Shown in pieces: positions 549 through 6,007 of a stretch of 6,007 nucleotides of DNA (positions are counted from its first letter, which is position 1; the number at the start of each line of letters is the position of its first letter). The notes under the pieces are model-generated. The model made no database searches, was not told the DNA's origin, and worked only from the letters and a program-made list of their open reading frames with translations. Origin of the DNA: Candidatus Bathyarchaeota archaeon (GTDB lineage: Archaea > Thermoproteota > Bathyarchaeia > TCS64). Location: NCBI GenBank assembly GCA_937877765.1, contig CALGBN010000294.1:1-6007 (forward strand), read 5' to 3'. The position numbers and the translations under genes were made by a program.

Positions 549-1751
549 TTATTCAGATCGTAACGCCTCCACAGGATGCATACTAGCAGCCCTCCAAGCC
601 GGATACAGACTAGACAAAGAAGTAGTTACCATAGCGAAGGCAATCACTCCCAACGCGAGAAACGGTGAACTAGAAACAGGCATATCAATACTACGTCCAA
701 TCAACTGACCGACACCAAGCCCAATCAACGCACCGAGAGTACCACCAATAAAACCAGTGATCACAGCCTCACTCAGAAACAACAAGAGAATATCCATACT
801 CTTACTGCCAATGGCCTTCATGATACCGATCTCACGTGTACGCTCCATGACACTTATCGTCATAGTGTTGATGATTCCGACACCAGCCACAAGGAGACTG
901 ATACCCGCCACACCTCCCAACACAGCCTCAATAGCACCGAGAATAGTGCCCACCATCTCCTGCGTAGACTCCGCTGTCAGTATGGTGACATCGTCTCCTA
1001 GCTCTTCCTCAAGATTCATAACCACTTGCGGCATATCCTCTGGGTCTGATACCTCTGCGGCGATGTACTGGTACTCTGCTCCTTTCTCATAGAGCTGCTG
1101 AAATATCCTCAGGGGCATGAATATGCTCTGGTCCTCATCGCTACTCATGCCACCTATCCCGCCTTGTTTCTCAAGTATGCCAATAACCCTGAAGGTCATA
1201 TCCTTCTCTTCGCCCTCCACCCTTACAGTCAAGGTTATCCTGTCACCAATATCATACCCCGGCATATCATCGTCCTTGGGAAACGCAAGCTCATATCCGA
1301 TCTCAACAACCCCAGCATCACCACGCCTCAGATGACGCCCATACTCTGGCTCCCAACCTGAATACATCTCAAAATACTCAGCCTCAATCCCATAAGCAAA
1401 AGCATACCGTGTCTCACCCTGTTTTGTTAGGCTGCACATTTCTCCAGCCATCACAGGAGTCACCACATGTATATTGGGAACCCTCTGAACCGTCTGAATA
1501 TCCTTCCAGTTAAAGCTCTCACTGGCTATCAGCCCAGCGCCCATCTCAAGACTCCCCGGCATAATCATAATATTATTAGGACCAAACATCTCCAACTGCC
1601 CCCCAACAAGGTCGTTTAGACCCTGTGTCATGCTGATTAACCCGGTGACGGCCATACAACCGATAAGAATGCCTAGAAGGTTGAGGGCAAACCTGAACTT
1701 ACGTTGGCTTAACCCGCGCCCACTCATCAGCATGATATCTTGAAGGTTCAA
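549..1751 (-). CDS. FtsX/MacB-type ABC transporter permease
   Basis: This 400-residue protein has the standard layout of MacB/LolCE-type permeases. One membrane segment lies at about 20-42, followed by a large extracytoplasmic MacB_PCD-like domain to about 270. Three C-terminal membrane segments follow at about 274-298, 320-350 and 362-384. Family hallmarks are plain: SVMERTREIGIMKAIGSK after TM2 (coupling region that contacts the ATPase) and YPAWRAASMHPVEALRSE at the C-terminus. The start is TTG at 1751, because an in-frame TAA sits directly before it and a GGTGA ribosome-binding site lies about 5 bases upstream; the next ATG is codon 7. It begins 14 bases after the stop of the secreted repeat-protein gene, so translation is probably coupled. 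Proteins of this family are mechanotransmitters or exporters (lipoproteins, peptides, macrolides) rather than importers; the substrate here cannot be read from sequence. Confidence 0.93.
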   Translation of the reverse strand: MNLQDIMLMSGRGLSQRKFRFALNLLGILIGCMAVTGLISMTQGLNDLVGGQLEMFGPNNIMIMPGSLEMGAGLIASESFNWKDIQTVQRVPNIHVVTPVMAGEMCSLTKQGETRYAFAYGIEAEYFEMYSGWEPEYGRHLRRGDAGVVEIGYELAFPKDDDMPGYDIGDRITLTVRVEGEEKDMTFRVIGILEKQGGIGGMSSDEDQSIFMPLRIFQQLYEKGAEYQYIAAEVSDPEDMPQVVMNLEEELGDDVTILTAESTQEMVGTILGAIEAVLGGVAGISLLVAGVGIINTMTISVMERTREIGIMKAIGSKSMDILLLFLSEAVITGFIGGTLGALIGLGVGQLIGRSIDMPVSSSPFLALGVIAFAMVTTSLSSLYPAWRAASMHPVEALRSE

Positions 1752-1765: not shown

Positions 1766-3289
1766 TTATCTGAAAAGGTTTCTCAGCCAGTTCCAGAATC
1801 CACCATTACTCTCTTCACCGTTCTCAGGCACAGTGCCCGCACTGATCTCAACATCAACATTAAGTAATGTCTCATGGGGCTTGTTCAGGTGATCCCTGTA
1901 TTTTATCAATAAAGTCATCTGATGTGTTCCGGGTTCAGTGTTCTCATCTACTTTGTAGAGCAAGTCAAACGGTATTGGACTATCAGGGTCTATTGCTCCA
2001 ATATACTCCTCACTTCCCTGAACACGTTTGAAAACCGCATTCTCTTCAAGCGAGATGCTCACAAACTCGACGCTTTCAGTTCCAATAAGCAAAATATCCG
2101 CCTCAAACTCGTCTGTAGTACCCGGGTAAACCATGATGCTTTCTGTGTCAAGAAGCCTGAAATCGACAAGCCCGTCAACCAACAAAGTTATGGTCTCTGT
2201 AACGGACTGTATTGTTCCCCGGCTATTTGTGTAAGATATGATTGCTGTTACTAGATACTGTCCAGCCTCTATACTCCCTGAAGCAAGTAGAGAATAGGTC
2301 GCCTTTGAAGTCTCATCAGCATCGAGGTCTCCTAAACTAATCACAGAGGGACTTACAGGTGAAACTGGGCTATTTGATGCAAAATTCAGGGTTCCAAGCA
2401 GTTCATATGCTGCTGCTCCTGAGCATTTTATTGTTAATTCTACTGTAAAAATGTCTCCTGGTAGAATTGTTCCTTCAAGAACCTCAATTTCTTCAATAGT
2501 AACACGAGTATTACGAACTGCTGCTGAAGACGCAACATTAACAGGGAGTGAGAACATTTGATGGAATCTATTTCCATCAGTATCCTTGTATGAGACTCCG
2601 GCTGTTATCGAATAAACCCCAAGAGTAGTCCCTTCTATGATGGAAAGCTTGGGATTAACACTAAATGAATCTCCCGAGGCTATTTCGTTTATGCTCATAA
2701 CGACATTTTCAGTTATTGTGATACTGCTTATCGATGAGCTGAGAACAACATTAACATCGGTTATAGTCTCGTTATCTATATTAGAAAACATGAAGCTAAC
2801 ATCGTTGGTTGCTCCTGCCTTAACCTCGATATCTTCTAATGTTGGACTATAAACTAAACTTGGTCTAAAGGCTTCAGAAACATATACACCAATTGGAACA
2901 GTCAGAGAATCTTCTGAAACTGAGCCAGATCGACCATATGTCACAGTAAGAGAGAGCGTATATGCTCCTAACGCAAGACTTTGATCCACATATATTGTCG
3001 GTTCATAATTCCTTGACTTGTCGGCTCGTATCTCTGTAACTACTTTGTTTGCTTCTGAGATCACTGTTAGTCCTGTTGTAGATGATGAAAGGAACGCCTC
3101 TACATCATAGATATTATAGTCACCCGTATTTTTCAGGATGATTTTAATCGCGTTTTCCTGTCCTGCCTTCAAGTAAATGTTTTTTGCACTTACTTGAAGG
3201 ATAGGAGAATCTGAGGCTTGTACATGGACAATCGTTGTACTGAATATCGTTAATAAGAGAAGGATTTGGATGATTCTTTTGTTTTTCAT
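1766..3289 (-). CDS. Secreted protein of four Ig-like/CARDB-type beta repeats (COG1361-like)
   Basis: This 507-residue protein starts with a clear signal peptide: KNKR, a hydrophobic core at 7-20, and likely cleavage after VQA at 25. The mature part is four homologous beta-sandwich units at about 28-137, 143-253, 262-371 and 376-483. Each opens with a strand such as KAGQENAIKIILKNTGD and closes with a G-x-Y-x-(L/I/V)-T-x-x-(V/I)-(S/T)-Y motif (GAYTLSLTVTY at 108, GVYSITAGVSY at 224, GQYLVTAIISY at 343, GTHQMTLLIKY at 454). An acidic linker and an aromatic/basic tail, GFWNWLRNLFR, finish it; no C-terminal membrane span is seen. The ATG at 3289 has GGAGAT 6 bases upstream. Lying between an ABC ATPase and its permease, it is probably the extracytoplasmic partner of the transporter. 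Archaeal COG1361 S-layer-type proteins often occur in this setting. Adhesin or substrate-capture roles are possible but unproven. Confidence 0.85.
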   Translation of the reverse strand: MKNKRIIQILLLLTIFSTTIVHVQASDSPILQVSAKNIYLKAGQENAIKIILKNTGDYNIYDVEAFLSSSTTGLTVISEANKVVTEIRADKSRNYEPTIYVDQSLALGAYTLSLTVTYGRSGSVSEDSLTVPIGVYVSEAFRPSLVYSPTLEDIEVKAGATNDVSFMFSNIDNETITDVNVVLSSSISSITITENVVMSINEIASGDSFSVNPKLSIIEGTTLGVYSITAGVSYKDTDGNRFHQMFSLPVNVASSAAVRNTRVTIEEIEVLEGTILPGDIFTVELTIKCSGAAAYELLGTLNFASNSPVSPVSPSVISLGDLDADETSKATYSLLASGSIEAGQYLVTAIISYTNSRGTIQSVTETITLLVDGLVDFRLLDTESIMVYPGTTDEFEADILLIGTESVEFVSISLEENAVFKRVQGSEEYIGAIDPDSPIPFDLLYKVDENTEPGTHQMTLLIKYRDHLNKPHETLLNVDVEISAGTVPENGEESNGGFWNWLRNLFR

Positions 3290-3336
3290 TTTTTTATCTC
3301 CAATATTTTTTCGCCTTCGATTAAACCGTCCTTGAA

Positions 3337-4002
3337 CTAGATTATCCGGTCAGTGCTCTGTCCCACCATTGGGTCATGAGTAATCAAAATGAAGGTCTTG
3401 CCTTCCTCGGTGTTCAACCGTCGGAGAAGATCCATGATCTCTTTCCCGGTTCTGCTGTCAAGGTTTCCGGTTAACTCGTCGGCTAGTATGAGGACTGGGT
3501 CGTTTGCCAAGCTGCGTGCGATGGCGACTCTTTGTTGTTCGCCTCCGCTGAGTTGGCTTGGTTTGTGGTCGGTTCTGTCTCCGAGTCCGACAAGTGATAG
3601 GAGCTTTTCTGCTCTATCATGACGTTTTCTTCTTCCTGTTCCTTTGATTGCCATTGGGAGTTCTACGTTTCCCAATGCGTCCATCCTTGGGATCAAGTTG
3701 AAGAACTGGAAGATGAAACCGATCTCAGTGTTTCGTAGGTCGGCTACTTGGTTATCGTTGAGTTGGCTTAGGTCTCTGCCGTTTATGATGACGTTTCCCT
3801 TTGTTGGTCTGTCGAGTGCTCCTATCATGTTGAGGAGCGTGCTTTTTCCTGAGCCACTGGGGTCCATGATGGCTGTGAATTCTCCGGGGGTTATCTCTAG
3901 GTTTATGCCTTTGAGGGCGTTGAGGGGTCTTCCGCCTTGCATGTAGGTTTTGTGTAGGTCTATGGTTTGTATGATGGGTGTTGGTTTTGTTGTTTGGTCC
4001 AT
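3337..4002 (-). CDS. LolD/MacB-type ABC transporter ATPase, amber-truncated and with an altered P-loop
   Basis: This 221-residue nucleotide-binding subunit powers the permease in the same operon. The Q-loop Gln99 (GFIFQFFNL), signature LSGGEQQ at 151-157, Walker B LILADE at 171-176, D-loop GNLDS and H-loop His209 (LITHD) are intact. Two positions are odd. The P-loop reads DPSGSGKST (47-55), with Asp replacing the first glycine. After Walker B, ADEL replaces the usual ADEP. The protein stops at DRII, where relatives continue with a short DG-containing strand. Reading past the TAG at 3337-3339 gives 16 codons, FKDGLIEGEKILEIKK, then TGA overlapping the next gene's ATG (ATGA). The full frame would therefore end at 3286. 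The ATG at 4002 has GAGG 7 bases upstream and an in-frame TGA just before that. Function could be lost; a recoded or mis-sequenced codon is also possible. Confidence 0.9.
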   Translation of the reverse strand: MDQTTKPTPIIQTIDLHKTYMQGGRPLNALKGINLEITPGEFTAIMDPSGSGKSTLLNMIGALDRPTKGNVIINGRDLSQLNDNQVADLRNTEIGFIFQFFNLIPRMDALGNVELPMAIKGTGRRKRHDRAEKLLSLVGLGDRTDHKPSQLSGGEQQRVAIARSLANDPVLILADELTGNLDSRTGKEIMDLLRRLNTEEGKTFILITHDPMVGQSTDRII

Positions 4003-4161: not shown

Positions 4162-4347
4162 GTGGACCAAGAACAACTCGAATCAATAATCCAGACGGAA
4201 ACTAACGAAACAATACACTCACTTATGACTATCAACAATGGTTGGGACAATCAAGTCATTGAAGTCAATAACACAGCCCGGTTCTCCACGTTTGAGGCAT
4301 TTCCAGCAGCCCCGGCAAAACTTGATGTCCAGTTCATCAAGGAATAG
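4162..4347 (+). pseudogene. N-terminal fragment of an aminoglycoside-phosphotransferase-like (APH/choline kinase) protein
   Basis: The plus-strand frame from the GTG at 4162 begins with an acidic helix (DQEQLESIIQTETNETIHS). It then reads LMTINNGWDNQVIEVNN, which matches the first strands and glycine-rich loop of APH-family small-molecule kinases, where a GWDN-x-V-x-x-V motif is typical. After about residue 37-40 the resemblance stops, and the frame merely runs antisense through the flavoprotein fragment to a TAA at 4345-4347. Family members are about 270-350 residues with a catalytic HGD motif, which is absent here. The first 57 bases lie outside the opposing gene, so this is not just an antisense shadow. 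It looks like the 5' stub of a gene whose remainder was deleted or lost in assembly. The family assignment rests on a short motif and is moderate. Confidence 0.5.
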
Positions 4348-4458
4348 CTCTGTTATCTCGGCTTCAGGGTTCTCTCGTAATCCGTTGATGATGTGTTTTG
4401 CGATGGTTGTTGAGTTTCCTTCTGGTTTTGGGCTTGCTACGACGATGACTGCTTTCAT
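4219..4458 (-). pseudogene. N-terminal fragment of an iron-sulfur flavoprotein (Isf/NADPH-dependent FMN reductase family)
   Basis: The minus-strand frame from the ATG at 4458 gives a textbook flavodoxin-fold N-terminus. It has strand KAVIVVAS, an FMN-phosphate loop SPKPEGNST (9-17), then an amphipathic helix and a second strand. Next comes Cys48-x2-Cys51-x2-Cys54-x7-Cys62, the compact 4Fe-4S motif known from archaeal iron-sulfur flavoproteins. The frame stops at residue 79 (IVDSHK), whereas relatives are about 180-200 residues and continue with a GSPVYY-type flavin-contact segment. So about 60% is missing, and the product should not fold into a complete FMN site. The broken end lies within about 4225-4285, where it overlaps the opposing phosphotransferase-like stub. 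In intact relatives the role is electron transfer in anaerobes, often in oxidative-stress defence. Confidence 0.75.
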
Positions 4459-5783: not shown

Positions 5784-5942
5784 CTAGAAAGCAGCAACAC
5801 CATGATTTTGTAGAAACTCCAAGACCTCACCTAGATCAGGAGCACTCCTACGTCCACCCATACGTGTGCATTTTAACGCCGAGACTGCTGTACTGAATAA
5901 TGCTATCCGCTTGGGGGACCATCCATTGATAAGTCCATAAAG
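5784..5942 (-). CDS. C-terminal fragment of a PfkB-family carbohydrate kinase (5' end missing)
   Basis: The minus-strand frame from the last genuine base to a TAG at 5784-5786 gives 52 residues. It begins LYGLINGWSPKRIALFSTA, continues VSALKCTRMGGRRSAPDLGE and ends in VLEFLQNHGVAAF. This is the end of a ribokinase/PfkB-type sugar or nucleoside kinase: the helix after the catalytic GAGD motif (F-x-x-GFLYGLLNGW), then A-x-x-ALKCTR-x-GAR-x-G-x-P-x-x-x-EVxxFL. The catalytic GAGD and substrate-binding regions would lie just upstream and are absent because real sequence stops at 5942, where adapter begins. The substrate cannot be inferred from the C-terminus. The gene is likely intact in the genome, and the fragment reflects the end of the contig. 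Confidence 0.8.
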   Translation of the reverse strand, partial: LYGLINGWSPKRIALFSTAVSALKCTRMGGRRSAPDLGEVLEFLQNHGVAAF

Positions 5943-6007
5943 CTGTCTCTTATACACATCTCCGAGCCCACGAGACCTCTCTACATCTCGTATGCCGTCT
6001 TCTGCTT
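5943..6007 (+). other. Illumina Nextera adapter (artefact, not genomic)
   Basis: The segment 5943-5961 is exactly the 19-bp Tn5 mosaic end CTGTCTCTTATACACATCT. Bases 5962-5976 are the Nextera read-2 portion CCGAGCCCACGAGAC. The next eight, CTCTCTAC (5977-5984), are an i7 index, which I recall as N707. Bases 5985-6007 match the P7 flow-cell sequence (ATCTCGTATGCCG and onward) to within one base of its end. This is adapter read-through kept at a contig end; anything annotated here would be false. Confidence 0.98.

Follow-up and report, generated by a model that had tools for sequence, protein, structure and literature searches.

The ATPase locus and its contig

The window analysed here (6,007 nucleotides) is the whole of contig C294 of genome G000, an assembly of 2.48 Mb in 573 contigs that is 77.8% complete. 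Three genes follow one another on its minus strand: that of an ABC ATPase at 4002-3337, that of a NEW3-domain protein at 3289-1766 and that of a MacB/FtsX permease at 1751-549. The features considered below are the following:

3337..4002, minus strand: the ATPase ORF at present, 221 aa followed by TAG; LolD/MacB-type ABC ATPase (PF00005)
3337..3339, minus strand: in-frame TAG at codon 222; of 15 near-identical homologues of full length, 13 have Gln and two have His there
3286..3336, minus strand: the former C-terminus, FKDGLIEGEKILEIKK, with its TGA
3862..3864, minus strand: codon 47 (GAC), which puts Asp at the position of the first Walker A Gly; all 24 related loci and 119 of the 120 listed database homologues have Gly there
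3286..3289, minus strand: ATGA overlap of the former ATPase TGA (3288-3286) with the ATG of the next gene (3289-3287)
1766..3289, minus strand: downstream NEW3-domain (PF10633) protein, 507 aa, open frame
549..1751, minus strand: MacB/FtsX-type permease, 400 aa, equal in length to P0122, a homologue with 99% identity; carries Ser381

The ATPase matched the PF00005 profile with 114 bits, against a gathering score of 25. Assignment as LolD was rejected, with the read-through form scoring 248.9 bits, below the 307.75-bit cut-off of the LolD equivalog model TIGR02211. The closest named relatives of the ATPase were found in three MAGs labelled Candidatus Bathyarchaeota, at 76-78% identity, which makes it likely that the window, too, comes from a member of the Bathyarchaeota.

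The contig ends in an adapter-like sequence (window 5943-6007), which we take to be the Nextera transposase adapter with index and P7 end. The supposed sugar-kinase ORF (5784-6005, minus strand) takes its first residues from this sequence, and a Pfam search with the last 51 residues of that ORF matched no family. The match of the flavodoxin-like gene (window 4219-4458) to its five best relatives was confined to roughly residues 1-67, the open frames of these relatives being 181-276 aa long. Near position 4264 it meets a plus-strand ORF (window 4162-4270); the start of this ORF, from 4162, presumably resembles a phosphotransferase, and its Pfam search gave no significant match. The junction near 4264 is possibly a rearrangement junction or a false join.

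The amber codon and the ancestral C-terminus

The original prediction placed an in-frame amber at codon 222 of the ATPase, in front of a preserved C-terminus. Direct reading of the sequence confirmed both the codon number and the arrangement, which is THDPMVGQSTDRII-TAG-FKDGLIEGEKILEIKK-TGA. The TAG (3339-3337) takes the last 17 residues off the ATPase, and the frame stays open for another 16 codons, up to the TGA that overlaps the next ATG (3289-3286). The tail past the TAG cannot be put down to chance, since it aligned with the C-terminus of 15 close homologues and of more distant relatives. The ATGA overlap, which had been likened to that of tightly packed operons, is present here but is not general among related loci: in L003, L004, L031 and L032 the stop of the ATPase, TAA or TAG, is directly followed by the ATG. 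In a distant ATPase paralogue of three genus-mates (L033, L034 and L035), the gene terminates in TAG, and a Glu/Lys-rich frame comes after it; in two of the three genus-mates another TAG is present.

We have then examined codon 222 among homologues. The best 120 of 7999 scored proteins were listed, and these included 15 full-length homologues (P0002-P0016) of 236-242 aa and 94-98% identity by the protein search (93-98% in a second comparison), with Gln (13) or His (2) at residue 222 and Gly47 in all. None of 35 other related loci had a stop at codon 222. This supported the claim that the full-length protein is ancestral, as did the 15 near-identical homologues. In the 24 loci at 63-78% identity the codon was CAG in 11, TAC in four, AGT or AGC in three, ATG in two, and CAC, GAG, ACC and CGA in one each; this codon table leaves aside rows below 60% identity and the partial locus L032, all of which are kept in the 35-locus alignment. 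CAG, the codon in 11 of the 24, is one transition away from TAG. Thus, the TAG would have arisen from a Gln codon CAG by a single transition, as judged from these more distant loci and not from the near-identical ones.

A second change on the same allele

The ATPase departs from its family at a further position, which the original prediction had not mentioned. The Walker A motif is GxxGxGKS and, to our knowledge, its first glycine is nearly universal. In the window this motif is not intact and reads DPSGSGKS, with Asp47 replacing the first Gly. Residue 47 was the sole departure of the window ATPase among 140 conserved columns, defined from 119 homologues with P0017 left out of the set. Besides Asp47, no other damage was seen in the frame, the 16 codons after the TAG included, and because the frame is otherwise undamaged the gene has not been long dead.

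The best solved-structure match by sequence was MJ0796 (1f3o; E 2e-67), spanning residues 14-233 of the read-through form and thus including most of the tail removed by the TAG. Compared with MJ0796 and with LolD/MacB ATPases, the window copy is shortened by 17 residues at its C-terminus and has its first Walker A Gly replaced by Asp. An AlphaFold2 model of the full-length homologue P0002 placed strands at residues 219-224 and 227-232, in a weak model with a mean pLDDT of 68, values of 53-55 around the hairpin and below 50 from residue 231. According to this model, the stop would fall within the first strand of a C-terminal beta hairpin and remove the second, while Asp47 is predicted to disturb the phosphate-binding loop. 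The two changes together are predicted to leave the ATPase unable to work, and the TAG allele is probably non-functional.

The permease carries Ser381 (window 609-611), shortly before PAWRA, at a position that is Gly in 34 of 34 homologues. Asp47 and Ser381 both lie at otherwise invariant sites; these changes, too few for a test of selection, would be compatible with its recent relaxation. A second pair of ATPase and NEW3-domain protein, about 77% and 69% identical to those of the window, is found on contig C489 of the same genome, with both frames open and Gly47 kept in the ATPase.

Another protein, P0017, shared both features of the window ATPase. It comprises 221 aa encoded on a 1106-base contig, its last residue being 221 as in the window, and is identical to the common form P0002 across these 221 residues except for Asp47. 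Residues 2 and 7 distinguish it from the window ATPase, so that two protein variants combine Asp47 with 221 as their last residue. In the list of the 120 best among 7999 scored homologues, Asp47 was confined to P0017, and no other protein simply ended before residue 222. The end of P0017 is possibly the end of its contig at that codon rather than a stop. The source mark "-" found on the window-encoded proteins is also borne by P0002-P0005, P0007 and P0017, and P0017 and the window may come from one sample. A further homologue, P0018 (219 aa), has the tail expected from the deletion of a single base a few codons before codon 222; it may be a second broken copy, or an error.

How the TAG is read

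Pyrrolysine had been listed among the possible explanations of the in-frame TAG. The idea was reasonable, as passages of two papers report Pyl genes in some Bathyarchaeota (PMC11764691, PMC9499178). A search for pylS, pylC and pylD, part of what had been proposed, was carried out over 61 genomes and gave PylS, PylC and PylD above the cut-offs in a single one, G054, which belongs to another family of the same class. None of the three exceeded its cut-off in G000, at its 77.8% completeness, or in 26 genomes of the same family; in G000, no PylS or PylC match was seen at E 0.001, and the only PylD match scored 19 bits against a cut-off of 150. In G050, from the family of G054, a partial PylD match of 76 bits stayed below the cut-off.

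G054 served as a positive control, having PylS, PylC and PylD, a tRNA-Pyl adjoining PylS (identified by ARAGORN) and, beside the pyl genes, an MtmB with in-frame TAG (GRPGMGL-TAG-GPETPLS). It gave 12 MtmB matches, one with an in-frame TAG and 11 without. The pyl genes, the tRNA-Pyl loop TTCTAAC and the amber-containing MtmB lie in L118, L133 and L248 (G054:C1:345000-358000). The pattern used for tRNAs with a CTA anticodon was a widened one that finds the tRNA-Pyl of G054, which a first, narrower pattern does not match; as an exact pattern, it would miss unusual or intron-bearing tRNAs. It gave 14 hits in G000 (seven for the reversed control), none of which was called CTA by ARAGORN, the tRNAs reported at these loci being only Arg(TCT), Cys(GCA) and Pro(TGG). 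In G000, ARAGORN covered 40 loci of sampled DNA in addition to the pattern hits. BLAST of the G054 tRNA-Pyl against G000 returned only a 15-base match (E 0.53). The silence of Rfam carries no weight, since it reports no tRNA at L180, the very locus of G054 that holds tRNA-Pyl. MtmB had no match in G000, and six family-mates have one. In the family-mate G016, which had no pyl genes over the cut-off, an MtmB homologue (L246; G016:C234:2059-3441) contains one in-frame TAG, off the Pyl site and at a Trp position (TGG in G020).

The use of TAG as a terminator was assessed in 209 kb sampled from G000, in which it closes 65 of the 165 ORFs with 100 aa or more. Past these TAG codons the median open run was 16 codons (mean 40.5), the values being 13 (31.6) after TAA and 9 (37.6) after TGA. 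The claim that TAG closes the ferritin-like gene at a natural end was borne out: from a set of 11 fetched relatives nine were examined, and all of these terminate 0-2 residues from that point. In G054, which has pyl genes, TAG still ends 50 of 174 sampled ORFs. Hence, the share of TAG in G000 argues only against a genome-wide reassignment, and avoidance of TAG was dropped as a sign of Pyl use.

A probable recent nonsense mutation and its alternatives

The data are best accounted for by a recent nonsense mutation, and it is very probable that the cell reads the TAG as an ordinary stop. Beyond a stop that is absent from close relatives, the frame stays open and the tail is conserved. The allele resembles young pseudogenes of prokaryote populations in its one premature stop within an otherwise open frame, in the existence of full-length near-identical copies and in a further substitution at a site that is otherwise invariant, and nothing was found that sets it apart from them. 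Loss of the gene would be tolerated through the second ATPase and NEW3-protein pair on C489. From the explanations originally listed, that of a very recent nonsense mutation is the best fit, with base error unlikely and pyrrolysine insertion not supported.

An error of base calling or assembly, with a sense codon as the true codon 222, is conceivable on a contig with an adapter-like end and a suspicious gene junction, the more so as TAG is one base from a Gln codon and GAC (Asp47) one base from a Gly codon. However, P0017, a distinct protein on another contig, has the same end and the same second rare change, and it is improbable that one pair of errors would recur in two protein variants. We thus regard error as unlikely, and the window allele, with its two likely damaging changes, as probably real on the strength of this sequence comparison. 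Encoding of pyrrolysine would share with the MtmB type an in-frame TAG and a conserved tail. Machinery of this kind is present in the same class, in G054, and since the pyl genes are clustered there, one contig missing from the incomplete G000 could hide them. Unlike the MtmB type, the present case came with no pyl genes over cut-off in G000 or its 26 family-mates, no CTA tRNA among the 14 pattern hits, no MtmB match in G000, and a TAG that is not conserved among ATPase homologues, the nearest of which have Gln or His at residue 222. The probability of this reading is negligible.

Near-cognate tRNAs might instead read through the TAG at some level and yield a short and a long ATPase without dedicated machinery. 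The full preservation of the tail would suit this reading, and so would a bacterial-genome analysis that describes in-frame stops, a TAG/CAG case among them, which related bacteria have retained under purifying selection (PMC7918605). Counter to the view of a non-functional allele, that analysis argues that many such stops do not make pseudogenes. The preserved tail is equally well explained by a recent mutation, though, and the stop shows no conservation, since sense codons stand there in the 15 nearest relatives of full length. Moreover, Asp47 on the same allele suggests that the gene is no longer constrained. Read-through is, in our view, quite unlikely. A further reading, in which selection would keep the Asp47/TAG222 allele as a short non-hydrolysing ATPase, a regulatory subunit of the MacB-like transporter or of the C489 paralogue, while leaky read-through of the amber codon would provide a little full-length protein, is highly speculative and very unlikely to hold.

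The recent nonsense mutation remains the preferred reading. A tempting lead, namely a lone in-frame TAG in an archaeal group that partly uses pyrrolysine, was in this way settled as probably ordinary. The case was told from recoding without recourse to reads, by comparing near-identical proteins, by the change in Walker A and by pyl searches for which a genome of the same class served as positive control. Its biological weight is small: a transporter gene is apparently being lost in part of the population.
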